In this document: positions 14,226 to 23,991 of the stretch, piece by piece
Layout of the letters: each line of letters starts with the position of its first letter
How positions within the stretch are numbered: position 1 is the stretch's first letter
Source: Solirubrobacterales bacterium
GTDB taxonomy: Bacteria; Actinomycetota; Thermoleophilia; Solirubrobacterales; 70-9
Assembly: GCA_023958085.1 (NCBI GenBank)
Contig: JAMLGI010000006.1
Coordinates: 62,001 to 126,000 of the forward strand
Reading direction: 5' to 3'
Length of the DNA stretch: 64,000 bases
Made by a program: the position numbers and the translations under genes
The notes under the pieces: generated by a model
The model's input: only the letters and a program-made list of their open reading frames with translations
Database searches by the model: none
What the model was told of the DNA's origin: nothing

Positions 14226-14980
14226 GCCGTGACCCGCTTCCAGGGGGCCAGAAGGCGTCCGCCGAGCAGCAGCAGGCCGTCGAACAGGATCGCCATCAGG
14301 ATCGCGATTCCACCGGCCATGATGATCCCGGTCTTGAAGGTGATGTTGGCCCCGACCAGAATCTCGGTGCCCAGACCGCCACCGTTGGCGAACACGGCCA
14401 GGGTCGCGATCGCGACCGTGGACACGGTCGCCACCCTGAGTCCGGCGATGATCTCGGGCAGCGCCAGCGGCAGCTCCACCTGCCAGAGCATCTGATTGCG
14501 GGTGAGACCGATCCCGCGGGCCGCTTCGGTCACCCCGGGGGAGACGTTTCCGAGGCCGGTGGTGATGTTGCGGAAGATGATCTGCAGGTTGAAGGCGGTC
14601 AGGGCGATGATCGCGGTCAGCGGTCCGCGGCCGGTGATCGGCAAGAGCAGAAAGAAGAAGGCGATCGAGGGGATCGTGTAGAGCACCCCGGTCCCGGCGA
14701 GGAAGGGGGTTGCCATCCAGCGGTGCCGGTGGGCAAGGACGGCCATCGCGAAGGCGATCAGGAAGCCGGCGATCACGGAACTGAGGACCAGACCCAGGTG
14801 CTGCAGGGTCGGCTCCACGTACCGCTCCCAGTTGCTCGCGACCCAGTCCGGGCAGAAAAGCCGGTTCTCGGTAATGCAGCTCGGCGAAGAGCGATCACGA
14901 AAAAAGTCCTCCGAGACTGCCGCGAGGGGACCGCCCCCGAGGCCCGAGATCATCGCCAGGGCTGATCCGGGCTCAGCCAA
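14222..14980 (-). CDS. Osmoprotectant ABC transporter permease
   Basis: 252 aa. An unusual ~55-residue N-terminal extension with two Cys precedes the first transmembrane helix; the membrane domain has the EAA loop TEAARGIGLTRNQMLWQVELPLALPEI. It overlaps the ATPase gene by 8 nt and the next permease by 4 nt. The extension may be a real periplasmic segment, as in two-permease Opu systems, or the start may be further in; there is no clear Shine-Dalgarno to decide. Confidence 0.88.
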   Translation of the reverse strand: MAEPGSALAMISGLGGGPLAAVSEDFFRDRSSPSCITENRLFCPDWVASNWERYVEPTLQHLGLVLSSVIAGFLIAFAMAVLAHRHRWMATPFLAGTGVLYTIPSIAFFFLLLPITGRGPLTAIIALTAFNLQIIFRNITTGLGNVSPGVTEAARGIGLTRNQMLWQVELPLALPEIIAGLRVATVSTVAIATLAVFANGGGLGTEILVGANITFKTGIIMAGGIAILMAILFDGLLLLGGRLLAPWKRVTA

Positions 14981-16184
14981 CGGGTCGCTCCGCCGGGCCG
15001 GGGTCCGGTTCGGCAGCCTCGTCGGAGGAGAGGAACTCCGAGACGATCTCGACCGAAAGCACCCCGGTCAGCCGTCCATGCCCGTCGACCACCGGGGCGT
15101 AGTGGGAGCTGCTCTGGAGCAGGGCCGCGAGTCCGTCGCGGAGAACGGAACCTTCGTCGAGGATCGGCTCGGGGCTGGAATCGGGGATGGCCGGCACCCG
15201 CTCCCGATTCAGGTCCCTGGCGGAGAGCCAGCCGAGTGGACGGTTCTCCCCGTCGGTCAGGATCGCGTGCGGAACCTCGGCCCGGGTGACCGCTTCCCGG
15301 ACCGGAGCGGTCGGATCGCCCGCCATCGCCACCGGAGCGGTCCAGAGGTTCACGTCCCGGACCCGCATCAGGGCGAGCCGTTTCAGTGCCCGGTCGGCAC
15401 CGACGAAGTCCTCGACGAACTCATCCGCCGGTTCCATCAGCAGTTCGGTCGGCGTCGCGAACTGGGCGAGCTCGCCGCCCCTCTTCATCACCGCGACCCG
15501 GTCACCCATCCTGATCGCCTCATCGACGTCGTGGGTGACGAAGAGAATGGTCTTGCCGATCTCTCCCTGAAGCCGGAGGAACTGGCTCTGCAGCCGCGAG
15601 CGGTTGATCGGATCGATCGCCCCGAACGGCTCGTCCATCAGCATCACCGGCGGGTCGACCGCCAGGGCCCGGGCAACCCCGACCCGCTGCTGCTGGCCGC
15701 CGGAAAGCTGAGCCGGATACCGGTCGGCGATCTCCGGGTCGAGGCCGATCAGCCCGATCAGTTCGGCAACCCGGCCGGCGATCCGGTCCCGGTCCCAGCC
15801 GAGCAGCCGGGGAACGGTGGCGATGTTTTCGCCGATCGTGCGGTGGGGGAAGAGACCGATCTGCTGGATCACGTAGCCGATCTCGCGGCGCAGCCGGGCC
15901 GGGTCGGTGTCGGCGACCGATCGCCCACCGATGGTGATCCGACCTGAAGTGATCTCGACCGTGCGGTTGACCATCCTCAGGGCGGTTGTCTTGCCGCAGC
16001 CGGAGGGTCCGACCAGGACGCAGATCTCACCGGCCGGAACCTCGAACTCGAGGTTCTCGACCGCCGGCGAGTCGGCGCCCGGGTATACCTTCGTCACCCG
16101 TTCAAAGCGAACCGTCGAAGCCGAAACGGGTCGGTGCTGACTGTCCTCGTGAGAGTCGGGGTCCGAACCCGTCCGGGTTGACAT
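14973..16184 (-). CDS. Osmoprotectant ABC transporter ATPase with CBS domains
   Basis: 403 aa. ABC domain: Walker [10 protein letters not shown] (~residue 60), signature [16 protein letters not shown], Walker [17 protein letters not shown], then the H-loop in [10 protein letters not shown]. The C-terminal ~130 residues hold two CBS-type repeats, which in OpuA-class transporters sense ionic strength or nucleotides. This places the operon in the osmotic-stress uptake class. The start is the ATG at 16184; the upstream open frame would add a 37-residue extension without family support. Confidence 0.92.
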
Positions 16185-16288
16185 CACCAGAAGCGTCCCA
16201 AACTCACCGGCGGGATCGAAAGCAAGCTGCGTTGCAGGGTGGAAAAGCCGGTGGGTCGACCGCACGCACGAACCTAGACTTCCCCGGA

Positions 16289-17521
16289 GTGCCAACTTTC
16301 AAACCCTCGCCTGCCGGTCCCTCCCGGGCCCCATTCCTCATCATCCTGCCGATTTTCATCTCGGCCGCTGTCGTGCTGCTGCTGGCCGTTTCTGCTGCTC
16401 CGGCTGCCGCATCGGTCGAATCCCGTCTTGACACGACCCGGGGCAAGCTGGACCAGGCAAACGAGAAGCGCGGTGTGCTCACCGATCAGATCGCCGGGAT
16501 GAGCTCCCGGATCAAGAGCTACGAAACCCAGGTGGTCGCCCTGCGGGCCGAGGAGCAGGCCGCTGCAGCCCGTCTGGCGGCCAAACAGGCGGAGCTGGAC
16601 CAGGCCCAGGCCGAGGTCGAACGGGCCTACGCCCAGCTCAAGGTGCTGGCCGCCCGGCTGGAACGGGCTCGCAAGGTCCTCGGGAACCGTCTCGTCGCGA
16701 TCTACCAGGGCGGCCCCTCGAACGTTTCCGAGCTGGTTCTCACCTCGCGGAGCTACGGGGACCTGATCCAGCGGTCCACCTATCTTGAGCAGATCCAGAA
16801 CCGGGATCAGGCAATCGCCGGCCGGGTGCGGGAGCTGCGCGACGCCCAGAAGCGGCTGGTCAGGAAGCTGCGGGACGCCAAGGAGCGGATCGAGTCCGCC
16901 CGGGACGAGATCGCCGCCGAAAAGGCGAACCTGACCACCGCCCGGGCTGCGGTCGAGAGCCAGCAGAACCGACTGCTTTCGGTCCGCTCGGCCCGACGTT
17001 CCGCCCTGGCCTCAATCGACTCGCAGGTCGAGAATCTGGAGGAGATCGAGTCCAATCTCCAGGCCCGGATCCAGGCCCAGATCGGAGCCGCCTCCGGGGC
17101 CAGCACCCTGCCGGCCGGCCCGATGTCCGCGCCCAGTGCCGCCGGGCTGATCTGGCCGGTCAGCGGCACCCTGACCTCCGGTTTCGGGGGCCGCAACTCC
17201 CCCGGCGGAATCGGGTCGACCAACCACGAAGGACTCGACATCGCGGTGCCGGAGGGCACGCCGATCCGTGCTGCCAAGGGCGGCACGGTGATCATGGCTT
17301 CGTACAACGGCGGCTACGGCAACTACACCTGTATCGATCACGGCAGCGGCCTCTCCACCTGCTACGCCCACCAGTCGAGCTTCGCGGTTTCGGCCGGGCA
17401 GCGGGTGAGCCAGGGCCAGGTGATCGGCTACTCCGGAAACACCGGCGCCTCGACCGGTCCCCACCTTCACTTCGAGGTGCGAATCAACGGCGTCGCCCAG
17501 GATCCGACCGCCTACCTGTAG
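16289..17521 (+). CDS. Secreted coiled-coil M23 (LytM) peptidase, EnvC-like
   Basis: 410 aa. A signal peptide (VVLLLAVSAAPAAA) precedes a long coiled coil (~50-275), a linker and a C-terminal M23 domain. Zinc and catalytic residues are present: His313 and Asp317 in NHEGLDIAV, and His392/His394 in GPHLHFEV, so it should be an active endopeptidase unlike some EnvC proteins. The GTG start follows TAGACT by 8 nt, consistent with a leaderless mRNA. Its coiled coil is paralogous to that of the NlpC/P60 protein at 6088. It is divergent from the osmoprotectant operon. Confidence 0.9.
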   Translation: MPTFKPSPAGPSRAPFLIILPIFISAAVVLLLAVSAAPAAASVESRLDTTRGKLDQANEKRGVLTDQIAGMSSRIKSYETQVVALRAEEQAAAARLAAKQAELDQAQAEVERAYAQLKVLAARLERARKVLGNRLVAIYQGGPSNVSELVLTSRSYGDLIQRSTYLEQIQNRDQAIAGRVRELRDAQKRLVRKLRDAKERIESARDEIAAEKANLTTARAAVESQQNRLLSVRSARRSALASIDSQVENLEEIESNLQARIQAQIGAASGASTLPAGPMSAPSAAGLIWPVSGTLTSGFGGRNSPGGIGSTNHEGLDIAVPEGTPIRAAKGGTVIMASYNGGYGNYTCIDHGSGLSTCYAHQSSFAVSAGQRVSQGQVIGYSGNTGASTGPHLHFEVRINGVAQDPTAYL

Positions 17522-18866: not shown

Positions 18867-19241
18867 TCAGGAGCCGACCCGATTCCGCTCCCGGGACTGG
18901 CGCAGGAACTCGATCGTGCCGAAGAACGGGGCGATGCAGCCCAGCAGCACGATCGCCACCGCCAGGCGCAGATTGATCACCCGGAAACGGACCGCGAAGA
19001 CGCTGGTGATCGCCATCCCGATCCAGATCAGGCCGTGGGAGAGACCGAAGATGAAGGTAAACGGCTGCGGCCCGCCGAGCAGAAAGGCGCAGGTCAGGAG
19101 ACCCAGGTAGACCAGCGAGTGAAAGAGGCTCACCGCCTCCATCCGCCGGAAGGTGACCAGTTCACGAAACCTCTGGCCTGAAACGGCCCCGGGCAGCTCT
19201 CCCCGGCCGGTTGATTCAGGTGTGGTCGATGCCTCGCTCAC
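18867..19241 (-). CDS. DUF3817 membrane protein
   Basis: 124 aa with three hydrophobic helices. The conserved pattern starts at FRRMEAVSLFHSLVYLGLL and continues with a HGLIWIGMAI segment and RFRVINLRLA, typical of DUF3817, common in actinobacteria. The GTG at 19241 is chosen; a longer frame to 19427 would run across the divergent antitoxin promoter. A Met ~33 residues later is an alternative start. Function unknown; it shares an operon with the MtaD-like gene. Confidence 0.75.
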   Translation of the reverse strand: MSEASTTPESTGRGELPGAVSGQRFRELVTFRRMEAVSLFHSLVYLGLLTCAFLLGGPQPFTFIFGLSHGLIWIGMAITSVFAVRFRVINLRLAVAIVLLGCIAPFFGTIEFLRQSRERNRVGS

Positions 19242-19356: not shown

Positions 19357-19371
19357 GCTATCATTGATAGC
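19357..19371. promoter_or_regulatory. Palindromic operator of the FitAB-type module
   Basis: GCTATCATTGATAGC is a perfect 15-bp palindrome ending 3 nt before the antitoxin ATG. It contains TATCAT, usable as a -10 box 10 nt before the start. FitA/VapB ribbon-helix-helix antitoxins autoregulate through palindromes of this type. Confidence 0.75.
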
Positions 19372-19374
19372 ACC

Positions 19375-19605
19375 ATGGCCCAGCTTCTTGTCAGAAACCT
19401 CGAGGATGAAGTGGTGAACCGGCTCAAAGTCCGAGCCGCCGAACGCGGGATCTCGGCCGAGGAGGAGCACCGCCGGATCCTGAGGGCAGCGCTGCTGGAG
19501 CCCGGGAACAGGTCGTTCGCCGAGTTGCTGCGTGAGATCCCGGATGTCGGTGAGGACAGCGATTTCGAACGACCCCTGGATCTGGGCCGCAGGGTCGACC
19601 TGTGA
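19375..19605 (+). CDS. FitA-type ribbon-helix-helix antitoxin
   Basis: 76 aa. MAQLLVRNLEDEVVNRLKVRA with the following AERGISAEEEHRRIL segment is the RHH DNA-binding domain of FitA antitoxins; the acidic C-terminus (EDSDFERPLDLGRRVDL) is the expected toxin-binding tail. The ATG lies 3 nt after a 15-bp palindrome, and the stop overlaps the toxin GTG by 4 nt. It should neutralise the PIN toxin and repress the operon. Confidence 0.9.
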   Translation: MAQLLVRNLEDEVVNRLKVRAAERGISAEEEHRRILRAALLEPGNRSFAELLREIPDVGEDSDFERPLDLGRRVDL

Positions 19606-20012
19606 GCTTCCTGCTGGACACGAACGTGATCTCGGAGTTGAGGAAGGGTGATCGTGCCGACCGGTCCCTCACCCGGTGGCTGGAATCGGTCCCGGATGAC
19701 GAAATCTTCATCAGCGCGCTGGTCATCGGTGAGCTGCGTCGCGGAGTCGACCTGGTCCGACGCCGGGATCCGGCCGGTGCCGCGTCACTGGAAAGCTGGC
19801 TCGGGCGGATCCCGGCCGCCTTCCCGGACCGGATCCTGCCGGTTGATCAAGCCGCGGCCGAGGAGTGGGGCCGGATCAACGTTCCCGATCCGGTTCCGGT
19901 CATTGACGGCCTTCAGGCGGCTACCGCGAAGGTCAGGGGGTTCACCTTCGTCACCCGCAACACGAGCGACGTTCAGCAAACGCGAGTCAAGCTGCTCAAC
20001 CCTTTCAGCTGA
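19602..20012 (+). CDS. PIN-domain toxin (FitB/VapC family)
   Basis: 136 aa PIN-domain ribonuclease. The acidic site is intact: Asp6 in LLDTNVISELRKG, Glu in ISALVIGELRRG (~residue 44), and Asp in VPVIDGLQAATA (~residue 105), with TRNTSD near the C-terminus. The residue arrangement is that of FitB. It is translated from GTG overlapping the antitoxin stop. The RNA target is not predictable. Confidence 0.9.
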   Translation: MSFLLDTNVISELRKGDRADRSLTRWLESVPDDEIFISALVIGELRRGVDLVRRRDPAGAASLESWLGRIPAAFPDRILPVDQAAAEEWGRINVPDPVPVIDGLQAATAKVRGFTFVTRNTSDVQQTRVKLLNPFS

Positions 20013-20691: not shown

Positions 20692-22080
20692 TCACCCGGC
20701 GAGGGTCTGCCCGAGCCGATGGAGCCGGTCGGCCGTCTCGGCCTTCAGCTCCGAGGGGAGATCGAAGCCGGCCGCGAGTTCAAGATCGTCCTGCCACCGG
20801 GTGAAGCGCCGGTCGGCATCGAGCGGACCCGGTTCCTCGCCCGCCTCGATCAGTTCGGTCAGGACGCCGATGCCGTCGAGCCGGTCGGCCAGCCAGACCA
20901 GCTGGGCGGTTCGGCCGGCGGTGGCGATCCGGCGACGGTGATCGGCGCGACTGTCGTCCAGGTCGCTGATCGCAGAGTCGTTGCTGAGCGTGAGCACGAG
21001 CTCCCGTAGATCTGGGCCGAAGGCGGCCCCGACCTCCTCCGGGGTGACGTCACTATGTTCAAGCGTGTCGTGCAGGTAGGCGGCGGCCACGGCGATCTCG
21101 TCGCCACCGAAGCTGGCGGTCGTCCGGGCCACCCGGGCGGGGTGTTCCATGAACCGGCCCCGCCCGTACTTGCCCGGCTGTCCCTCATGGGCTCGAACCG
21201 CGAAGGCGTACGCCTTCGCCGGGAGGTGGAGCGGGGCGGCACCCGAAACCCGGTCCGGATGGTCACGGTCGACGAAGCGGCGAACACCTTGCCTGATCTG
21301 CGGTTCGGTCAGGAGACGGTTGAAGCATTCACGTTCGACCTCGAGTCCTTCGTCGAGCGGGCGACCGAAACCGCGGACCGCCGCCTCGAGATCGGTCCTG
21401 AGTGCGGGCTGGGGCAGGGCGGCGATCTCGGTCGCCAGCTCCACCGCCCGGGCGACGCAGCTTCCGCTGGTGGTCACCTCGTTGACCAGGCCGATCCGTT
21501 CCGCCTCGCTCGCCCCGATCACCCGACCGGTGATGATGAGATCCAGCGCCCGCGAGAGCCCGATCAGCCGCGGCAGGCGCTGGGTGCCACCGTCGCCGAG
21601 GCCGACGTTCCAGCGTCGGCAGGTGACCCCGAACGAGGCGTGCTGGTCGGCGATCCTGAGATGAGCGAAGCAGGCCCACTCGAGTCCGCCCGCGTAGGCG
21701 GCCCCGTTGACCGCGGCGATCATCGGCTTGTGGACGCTGGTCCAGCGGGTCGGGCCGATGTTCCCCTCGACCGGGATCGGATCCCCGTCCGGGTCGGCCG
21801 GGTCGAACAGCGGTTCCTCGGCTGACCCCTCGGTGAACATCGCGGCCACCGACTTGAGGTCGGCCCCGGCGCAGAAGGCGTTCTGGCCGGCGCCGGTGAT
21901 CACCATCACCGCGGCCTCCGGATCCTCGCGGAACGCCGCCGTCGCGGCAAATAGACCCCCTGCTTCCACCGGACCGATCGCGTTCATCCGGGTGGCCCGG
22001 TCGATGGTGAGGAGCCACACTCCGTCGGCCGGTGAGTCCAGCCGAATCGTGTCGGGGAGCTCCGGGAGGTGGCCGGTCAA
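20692..22080 (-). CDS. Crotonase (enoyl-CoA hydratase/isomerase) fused to RelA/MESH1-like HD domain
   Basis: 462 aa. Residues ~10-285 form a crotonase: NAFCAGADLKSVAAMF and then NGAAYAGGLEWACFAHLRIA carry the two oxyanion-hole segments, and the tail IRQGVRRFVDRDHPDR is a typical crotonase end. From residue ~295 to the end, in the same frame, is an HD hydrolase like MESH1/RelA: FMEHPARVA, AYLHDTLEHSDVTPEEV, LRELVLTLSND and LVWLADRLDGI give the four metal-binding positions. The usual E-D dyad is E-H here. The start is placed at TTG 22080, just before the conserved N-terminus; no ATG is available. Confidence 0.8.
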   Translation of the reverse strand: MTGHLPELPDTIRLDSPADGVWLLTIDRATRMNAIGPVEAGGLFAATAAFREDPEAAVMVITGAGQNAFCAGADLKSVAAMFTEGSAEEPLFDPADPDGDPIPVEGNIGPTRWTSVHKPMIAAVNGAAYAGGLEWACFAHLRIADQHASFGVTCRRWNVGLGDGGTQRLPRLIGLSRALDLIITGRVIGASEAERIGLVNEVTTSGSCVARAVELATEIAALPQPALRTDLEAAVRGFGRPLDEGLEVERECFNRLLTEPQIRQGVRRFVDRDHPDRVSGAAPLHLPAKAYAFAVRAHEGQPGKYGRGRFMEHPARVARTTASFGGDEIAVAAAYLHDTLEHSDVTPEEVGAAFGPDLRELVLTLSNDSAISDLDDSRADHRRRIATAGRTAQLVWLADRLDGIGVLTELIEAGEEPGPLDADRRFTRWQDDLELAAGFDLPSELKAETADRLHRLGQTLAG

Positions 22081-22090
22081 CTGACCCGGG

Positions 22091-22699
22091 TCACTCTCCC
22101 GGGGTGACAACCTGCGGCGTGGTGGTGCCGGTGGTTCCGGTCGGCGGGACGGTAGAGGTGGTTCCGGTTTCGGGGATCGTGGTGCCCGTCGTTCCGGTTT
22201 CGGGGAGGGTGGTGCCGGTTTCCGGGACGGTAGCCCCCCCGGCTGCCGCTGCGGCCTCGGTTGCCTCCTCAAGGTCGCTGATCCGGGTTTCGAGGGCGCT
22301 GATCCGGTCCCCGTCGGCGTTCTTGGTGATCGAGATGTAGAGCGCTGCCGCGCCGACCCCGACCGCCAGGCAGGTCAGGACGAGGGCGATGATCGAGCGC
22401 TTCTTCAGGGACTGGTCCAGCTCCCTGAGCCAACCACGCTGGCCGTCCAGCCGGGTCGCGATATCAACCGGCTGCTTCTGCCGGGCGGCCGGTTGGCGAC
22501 CGGTCGGGGTGACGCCCGTGTAACGGCCGGATCGAGGATCGCGAGCGGTCTGGGGCCGGCCGGTGCGGGGATCGGTGGTCCCGGGTGGTGAACCGGGAGG
22601 TGGCCCGCCGGGCGCTCCGGAACGGGGGCCGCTGGGCGTTCCGGATCGGGGAGGACCGGGCGGTTCGGGGCTGCTGCCGGGTTGGCGCGGGGTGGCCAT
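22091..22699 (-). CDS. Single-pass membrane protein with Pro-rich and PETGTT-repeat ends
   Basis: 202 aa. Residues 1-75 are Pro/Gly/Arg-rich and cytosolic, ~100-120 are one transmembrane helix (SIIALVLTCLAVGVGAAALYI), ~128-145 are a short coiled coil (ISALETRISDLEEA), and the C-terminal 55 residues are Thr/Pro-rich with several P-E-T-G-T-T repeats. TAGATT lies 7 nt before the ATG (leaderless). The stop is 10 nt from the crotonase-HD start, so they may be co-transcribed. Function unknown; the tail is probably extracellular and wall-spanning. Confidence 0.75.
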   Translation of the reverse strand: MATPRQPGSSPEPPGPPRSGTPSGPRSGAPGGPPPGSPPGTTDPRTGRPQTARDPRSGRYTGVTPTGRQPAARQKQPVDIATRLDGQRGWLRELDQSLKKRSIIALVLTCLAVGVGAAALYISITKNADGDRISALETRISDLEEATEAAAAAGGATVPETGTTLPETGTTGTTIPETGTTSTVPPTGTTGTTTPQVVTPGE

Positions 22700-22809: not shown

Positions 22810-23991
22810 ATGCCTGAAGCAGTGATTGTGGACACCGTCCGCACCCCGATCGGCCGCGCCTTCAAGGGCTCGCTGGCCCAGGTTCGCCCGGACGAGACCG
22901 GTGCCTTCGTAATCGACCAGCTTCTCGAGCGCAACCCCGGTGTCGACCCGGCTGCGGTTGAAGAGGTTTTCTGCGGGGTCGGGATGCCGCAGGGCAAGCA
23001 GGCCTACAACCTCGCCCGGATCCTGGTTCTGCTCTCGAACAAGCTGACCCAGGCCACCACCGGCGTCACCGTCTCCCGCTACTGCGCGTCCAGCCTCGAC
23101 GCGATCCGCCACGCCTCGAACGCCGTCAAGAACGGCGAGGGCGACATCTACATCGCCGCCGGAGTCGAGTTCGTCAGCCAGTTCAACGCCCGCAGCGAGG
23201 TCGCCGGTTCGATCTCGGCCGGCGAGGACGACCAGAACGAGAAGCTGATCGGCAACGACGGCCAGCCCAACGCGTACATCGACATGGGCCTGACCGCGGT
23301 CAACGTCGCCAACAAGTATGGCGTCAGCCGCGAGGCGATGGACGACTACGCCCTGCGCTCACAGCACCTGGCGGTCGCCTCCCAGGAGTCCGGCTTCTTC
23401 GATCGCGAGATCGTGCCGGTCACCCTCGCCGACGGAACCGTGGTCTCGAAGGACGACGGCCCCCGCAAGGATGGCGGCGACATGCGCGAGAAGCTCGGTT
23501 CGCTGCCGGAGGCCTTCGGTGGCGGCGGGGTCACCGCCGGCAATTCCTGTCCGCTTAACGACGGAGCGGCCGCGGTCCTGATCTTGAGTGACACCAAGGC
23601 GAAGGAGCTCGGTCTCGAGCCCCGCGCCCGGATCATCTCCTCGGCAACCGCCGGCAACGAGCCGGAGCTGATGGGCGTCGCTCCGATCGGTGCGGTCAAG
23701 AAGCTGCTCGACCGGACCGGGATGAGCATGAGCGACATCGGCACGGTCGAACTGAACGAGGCCTTCGCCGCCCAGGTGATCCCGATCTCGGAAGAGGTCG
23801 GCATCCCGATGGACAAGCTCAACACCCACGGCGGGGCGATCGCCCTCGGCCACCCGTTCGGCATGACCGGCGCCCGGATCATGGGCACCCTGCTCAACGT
23901 GATGGAGACCGACGACCACCAGTTCGGCATCGAGACGATGTGCGTTGCCGGCGGTCAGGGTGAGGCCACCCTGGTGGAGCGCCTGAAGTAG
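22810..23991 (+). CDS. Acetyl-CoA acyltransferase (thiolase)
   Basis: 393 aa. The acyl-accepting Cys is Cys92 in SRYCASSLDAI; the C-terminal His and Cys are in GGAIALGHPFGMTGARI and CVAGGQGEATL. It is of the FadA/thiolase II type and performs reversible thiolytic cleavage of 3-ketoacyl-CoA. The Shine-Dalgarno AAGGAGA is 12 nt before the ATG. It is divergent from the crotonase-HD pair and not in an operon with other beta-oxidation genes. Confidence 0.93.
   Translation: MPEAVIVDTVRTPIGRAFKGSLAQVRPDETGAFVIDQLLERNPGVDPAAVEEVFCGVGMPQGKQAYNLARILVLLSNKLTQATTGVTVSRYCASSLDAIRHASNAVKNGEGDIYIAAGVEFVSQFNARSEVAGSISAGEDDQNEKLIGNDGQPNAYIDMGLTAVNVANKYGVSREAMDDYALRSQHLAVASQESGFFDREIVPVTLADGTVVSKDDGPRKDGGDMREKLGSLPEAFGGGGVTAGNSCPLNDGAAAVLILSDTKAKELGLEPRARIISSATAGNEPELMGVAPIGAVKKLLDRTGMSMSDIGTVELNEAFAAQVIPISEEVGIPMDKLNTHGGAIALGHPFGMTGARIMGTLLNVMETDDHQFGIETMCVAGGQGEATLVERLK

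Follow-up and report, generated by a model that had tools for sequence, protein, structure and literature searches.

Results

Architecture of the fusion gene

The window, which is the whole 64,000-nucleotide stretch of Solirubrobacterales DNA analyzed here, contains at 20692–22080 on the minus strand a coding sequence of 462 amino acids that starts with TTG at 22080, stops at 20692 and has no internal stop across its 462 codons. Pfam searches found a crotonase domain (ECH_1, PF00378; 2e-39) over the first ~275 residues, covering positions 4–246 of the 251-position profile, and an HD domain (HD_4, PF13328; 1.4e-11) over about residues 290–405. The initial annotation had reported one uninterrupted crotonase–HD frame here, with exactly these coordinates and both of these domains. 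The top NCBIfam model was PRK08259, a crotonase model, with a score under the curated cut-off. The N-terminal half (21250–22080, minus strand; residues 1–277, or ~1–280) is an EchA5-like crotonase ending in a conserved DHPDR motif. It is followed by a linker of about 10 residues (21220–21249, minus strand), of equal length in 13 of 13 fusions in the junction alignment, and by a C-terminal HD domain of the SAH/MESH1 fold (20692–21230, minus strand), placed by the HD_4 match, a predicted model and Foldseek. A (p)ppGpp synthetase domain is absent from the Pfam matches of the fusion protein. In a full-length AlphaFold model built from 13 rows, the crotonase half was modeled poorly (block pLDDT 27–86), and we therefore claim no interface between the domains.

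Genomic neighborhood

A single-pass membrane protein is encoded directly upstream (22091–22699, minus strand), 10 nt from the fusion start. The initial annotation had already suggested that this neighbor might be coupled to the fusion, and it is indeed a conserved one. Divergent to it lies an acetyl-CoA acetyltransferase-type thiolase (22810–23991, plus strand; Thiolase_N, 2.4e-57), likewise a conserved neighbor by synteny. Gene order is kept in the genus: the thiolase points one way, and the membrane protein, the fusion, a small membrane protein and an amidohydrolase follow in that order, all pointing the other way. The membrane protein divergent to the thiolase (6398–6853 in L160, a locus of a sister genus) persists in further genera of the family, including where there is no fusion. 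In three genomes of the genus (G003, G005, G017) its stop codon appears to overlap the GTG start of the fusion (GTGA), which points to translational coupling of the two genes.

The small membrane protein (91 amino acids; 18867–19142, minus strand) directly follows the fusion in several relatives and occurs in 15 of 18 genomes of the genus and in none of the other genera of the family; a Pfam search of the longer frame returned no match. In the window, a FitA/VapB-like ribbon-helix-helix antitoxin and a PIN-domain toxin (19363–20012, plus strand) lie downstream of the fusion and before the small membrane protein. Because several relatives have the fusion and the small membrane protein adjoining, with no such pair between them, this slot seems to take insertions; some members of the genus carry insertions 3' of the fusion. 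Paralogs (31–39% identity) of the window reading frame at 14973–16295 come after the fusion instead in five members of the genus (L032, 4965–5699; L033, 3631–4362; L034, 2–571; L041, 7153–7911; L167, 339–1118); in L167 the paralog comes after a partial HD half.

Distribution and conservation of the fusion

The two-domain frame is present in 13 genomes of one GTDB genus, i.e. in the window copy and in 12 others (in our set G000, G001, G002, G003, G005, G006, G007, G009, G010, G011, G013, G014 and G017), sharing 57–66% identity with the window copy across about 450 residues. The same in-frame architecture thus recurs in relatives, where the initial annotation had proposed to look for it. The junction aligns without gaps as DHPDRxxGAxPLhLPxxAYxFA, where h is His or Tyr, and the 13 assemblies, with purifying selection on both sides, give no sign of the indel or missed stop near 21150–21250 that the initial annotation had named as a concern. 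Nonsynonymous to synonymous rate ratios (dN/dS) among the six closest genomes (dS about 0.7–1.7) were 0.06–0.13 for the crotonase half and 0.14–0.29 for the HD half. Purifying selection thus acts on both halves, with faster evolution in the HD half.

Across the order, 13 of 232 genomes gave a full-length match to the fusion profile, all within the genus. Scanning 84,980 species genomes with two crotonase signature peptides left 80 kept loci, 10 of which have an HD half and read as records of the same genus; because crotonase motifs seeded the scan, fusions with a more distant crotonase could escape it. The unfused crotonases inspected stop soon after the DHPDR motif, and one that is 72% identical occurs, unfused, in G068, a genome from a different family of the order. 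Fused rows cluster together in the crotonase tree, of which only this clustering is used here, since three outgroup rows (L066, L070, L078) are wrong frames that make its outer part unreliable. Long SAH-containing frames in G049, G046 and G043 (545–651 amino acids) were considered as further fusions and rejected, inspection revealing GC-rich readthrough before the SAH and no crotonase. Open-licence papers yielded no described fusion of a crotonase or enoyl-CoA hydratase with an SAH or HD-ppGpp domain.

Origin of the fusion

Two reduced genomes of the genus (G008 and G016; 1.5 and 1.8 Mb) have a lone HD half where their relatives have the fusion, immediately following the membrane protein gene (loci L015 and L016, and L044 and L045), and a crotonase search of these genomes gave no match at a 1e-30 threshold. 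In the HD tree, the two copies are sister to that of the fused G006 (support 95/99) inside the genus clade (97/96), so that loss of the crotonase, a natural domain loss, is the economical reading of these sequences and a pre-fusion state is less likely; the base of the tree is not resolved, and a later gain of the crotonase is formally possible.

In the sister genus g9, two genomes (G032, G037) encode a stand-alone SAH that follows, at a distance of a few kb, a similar membrane protein and the same thiolase. This makes the SAH the earlier resident of the locus and the crotonase a later addition in front of it, and the most parsimonious account is that a crotonase gene was joined ahead of the resident SAH once. 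Ahead of the g9 SAH lie a PAS-like and a metallo-hydrolase-like gene (4612–5906 in L160), names that reflect a reading of the sequences by eye; the arrangement hints at a signaling cassette.

The HD half

The model of the HD half was of high confidence (pLDDT 96.8; AlphaFold2, 27 homologs), and its top Foldseek matches were all MESH1 or SAH/Rel hydrolase domains. The best E-value was to the complex of human MESH1(D66K) with PAPS (9chy), and the best query TM-score, 0.85, to RelH of Corynebacterium glutamicum (7qod), with 0.82 for both the Leptospira SAH (7qoe) and a metazoan SpoT ortholog (3nqw). Both its descent and its fold place the HD half in the SAH/MESH1 lineage.

Active-site residues were compared using MESH1 numbering, for which the reference sequence was checked against 3nr1. 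The metal-binding pattern H, HD, D read by the initial annotation is present and invariant: His313 (21142–21144; MESH1 H35), His337-Asp338 (21067–21072; H61-D62) and Asp399 (20884–20886; D122), all on the minus strand. Together with Glu341, these residues are invariant in the 13 fusions, in the two lone copies of the genus and in 15 SAHs from the family and order; the metal ligands are also invariant across the 27 homologs. Next to this Glu, the initial annotation had noted E-H in place of the E-D dyad (E65-D66 of MESH1). That holds for the window, where Glu341-His342 lies at 21055–21060 on the minus strand; the pair is E-K in the 12 other fusions, and both lone genus copies have Lys at the D66 position as well. 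Two further pocket residues are replaced in 15 of 15 genus copies, namely the base-contacting Arg (MESH1 R24, RelSeq R44), which is Gly or Asp, and the Asn contacting base and phosphate (MESH1 N126, RelSeq N148), which is Gly or Ser; in most SAHs of the family these positions are Arg and Asn. Thus the initial description of a RelA/MESH1-like ppGpp/NADPH hydrolase is borne out in fold and metal site, and not in canonical chemistry, for which the counterparts of MESH1 R24, D66 and N126 are replaced genus-wide. With three of the active-site residues that mark the SAH class replaced, we would not file the HD half as a (p)ppGpp hydrolase.

Five stand-alone SAHs from other genera of the family (L020, L022, L027, L029, L031) have Lys at the D66 site and retain the pocket Arg and Asn, and a sixth (L017) has Gln in place of the dyad Asp and keeps the same two residues. 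The D66 site is therefore variable in this lineage, and Lys there need not mean inactivity. Among the solved SAHs whose sequence was compared, there was no case of Lys at this site together with shown activity; Lys is visible at D66 in the 5vxa sequence. The D66K variant of MESH1 is called catalytically inactive and served to trap NADPH (PMC9894426), and in RelSeq the R44Q substitution abolished hydrolysis (PMC13299517).

Like the HD half, the SAHs C. glutamicum RelH (7qod), PaSAH (6yvc), the Leptospira enzyme (7qoe), Lmo0812 (4yf1) and XccSAH have the metal ligands and catalytic Glu and no synthetase domain, and the fold is similar (query TM-scores of 0.77–0.85 to 7qod, 6yvc and 7qoe). Unlike them, the HD half is fused to a crotonase and has other residues in place of the RK-pair Arg, the ED-dyad Asp and the Asn of the D-K-L-x-N motif. 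Human MESH1 (3nr1, 5vxa, 9chy) has the fold and metal site in common with the HD half, but is a single-domain protein with Asp at position 66, where the fused HD half has His (window) or Lys (relatives). The (p)ppApp hydrolase of Bacteroides caccae (7smg) has Asp at the R24/R44 position (GQIDK), as do several fusions (GQIDR, GKLDR, GQRDR) and related proteins of Pseudomonas and Pseudomaricurvus; the B. caccae enzyme differs from the fusion in keeping E-D, in having a single domain, and in showing only about 23% identity in the fold match.

The genome that carries the window encodes a canonical long Rel with hydrolase-type and synthetase domains, which holds the sole RelA_SpoT domain found in that genome. 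A role for the HD half as a toxSAS antitoxin (toxin–antitoxin) was considered and rejected, as no small synthetase was found in the genome.

The crotonase half

The solved structures nearest to the crotonase half are those of mycobacterial EchA5 (3qka, 4z0m, 4qfe, 3r9q; about 40% identity), with which it shares the active-site segment GV-x-CRRW-x-V-x-L-x-DGGT, the GGLE motif, and Cys in place of Glu164. EchA5 has no HD domain, unlike the fusion, where one stands right behind the crotonase C-terminus. Similarly, stand-alone crotonases of Mycobacterium, Pseudomonas, Desulfobacteraceae and Thermoleophilaceae are 52–61% identical and have the same DHPDR end, but finish soon after it without an HD domain. 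Two segments are invariant in the fusions, C70–D74 (CAGAD) and G131–E134 (the GGLE region), and presumably form the oxyanion hole. The counterpart of rat Glu144 is present (E134), and that of Glu164 is Cys154, as in EchA5; we take the two rat residues to be the catalytic Glu pair of enoyl-CoA hydratases of the ECHS1/EchA8 type. Of the two Glu of a classical enoyl-CoA hydratase, then, the crotonase half has one. The Asp of L-x-DGGT, which follows the Cys and is invariant in the fusions and EchA5, presumably aligns with Asp204 of dienoyl-CoA isomerase, suggesting that isomerization is as likely as hydration. The initial label, enoyl-CoA hydratase/isomerase, therefore stands as to crotonase membership (ECH_1, 2e-39) and is doubtful as to hydratase: judged by its residues, this half belongs with EchA5-like proteins, and the name 'enoyl-CoA hydratase' is uncertain, there being no equivalent of Glu164.

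Discussion

We propose, with a probability of roughly one half, that the fusion is a genus-specific protein combining an EchA5-type crotonase with a metal-dependent hydrolase of a purine nucleotide other than (p)ppGpp, probably an adenine-based one. The crotonase half would bind an acyl-CoA. The HD half, descended from the stand-alone SAH resident at the locus, would still be a metal(Mn)-dependent phosphohydrolase, a role to which its metal site and catalytic Glu point, being intact and under selection. Its substrate would be a purine nucleotide with a phosphate or pyrophosphate at the 3' or 2' position; if a base is to be named, adenine is the likelier, as in (p)ppApp, PAP(S) or NADP(H). Such nucleotides are favored because known relatives hydrolyze pppApp and NADPH, SAHs being broad in substrate use (PMC9765508), and because MESH1 is reported to be a PAPS phosphatase (PMC12934728); the Asp that several fusions have at the R24 position, in common with the (p)ppApp hydrolase 7smg, speaks for the same reading. 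Conversely, canonical (p)ppGpp hydrolysis by the HD half is unlikely, given that the guanine-contacting Arg and Asn and the dyad Asp are all replaced; that reaction could be carried out by the long Rel of the same genome. The fusion would mainly keep two activities co-produced and co-localized, perhaps near the membrane via the protein encoded just upstream. The hydrolytic activity, its substrate and any coupling of the halves are what we infer from these comparisons. Counting against hydrolysis are the Lys or His at the D66 position, read with the inactive MESH1 D66K and RelSeq R44Q variants, and the faster evolution of the HD half. The fusion may link acyl-CoA turnover to nucleotide hydrolysis, a hypothesis raised by the initial annotation; two members of the genus keep the HD half without any crotonase.

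The same replacements raise the main, if tentative, alternative that the HD half is a non-hydrolyzing nucleotide sensor, in which Lys or His at the D66 position stops catalysis and leaves binding in place, the bound nucleotide regulating the crotonase or the oligomer. The D66, R24 and N126 counterparts are all altered in the same clade, with Lys at D66 in 12 of the 13 fusions and His in the window; MESH1 D66K, although called inactive, binds NADPH (PMC9894426) and PAPS (9chy); and R44Q kills hydrolysis by RelSeq (PMC13299517). On the other hand, a pure sensor would not need the invariant metal ligands and catalytic Glu, and Lys at the D66 site also occurs in the five stand-alone SAHs that keep R24 and N126. 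Moreover, the lone HD half of G008 and G016 has no crotonase to regulate, which indicates a job of its own for this half and makes it less likely that it serves only to regulate the crotonase.

Rather less probable, and compatible with the hydrolase we favor, is a functionally neutral fusion, in which unrelated enzymes are carried on one transcript and chain for co-expression only and their linkage is of no consequence for regulation. Each half is found alone elsewhere, and two genomes have apparently lost the crotonase and retained the HD half; against this, the maintenance of both the fusion and its linker length in 13 genomes at 57–66% identity to the window copy suggests a benefit. It appears improbable that the protein ties acyl-CoA turnover to alarmone level as an active (p)ppGpp or NADPH hydrolase attached to an enoyl-CoA hydratase: the fold and metal site are correct and SAHs are promiscuous (PMC9765508), but three residues used by those enzymes are lost, a long Rel is already in the genome, and the crotonase half has no Glu164 counterpart.

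CoA carries a 3'-phospho-ADP. It is conceivable, though quite unlikely, that the HD half strips the 3'-phosphate from the ADP part of (acyl-)CoA or from a PAP(S)-type nucleotide, with the crotonase delivering or sensing it; if true, a CoA 3'-phosphatase would explain the fusion partner, the lost guanine contacts and the kinship to PAPS-dephosphorylating MESH1. Lastly, an assembly or annotation artefact (chimera, frameshift or missed stop) can be dismissed, since, although the named records of the relatives are metagenome-assembled drafts, the identical junction in 13 concordant assemblies, several from visibly different projects, excludes sequencing error, and both sides of the junction are under purifying selection.

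The protein combines known parts in a new domain architecture, with changes in the active site, and is, within reach of the searches made, the first conserved fusion of an SAH/MESH1-type HD domain and an acyl-CoA enzyme. It also provides a natural lineage whose usual residue at the D66 position is the one used to kill MESH1 (D66K), in combination with a preserved metal site. Either this active site works without the D66 Asp on a new substrate, or an alarmone hydrolase has evolved into a nucleotide sensor; both outcomes would shed light on what makes an SAH act on ppGpp, ppApp, NADPH or PAPS.
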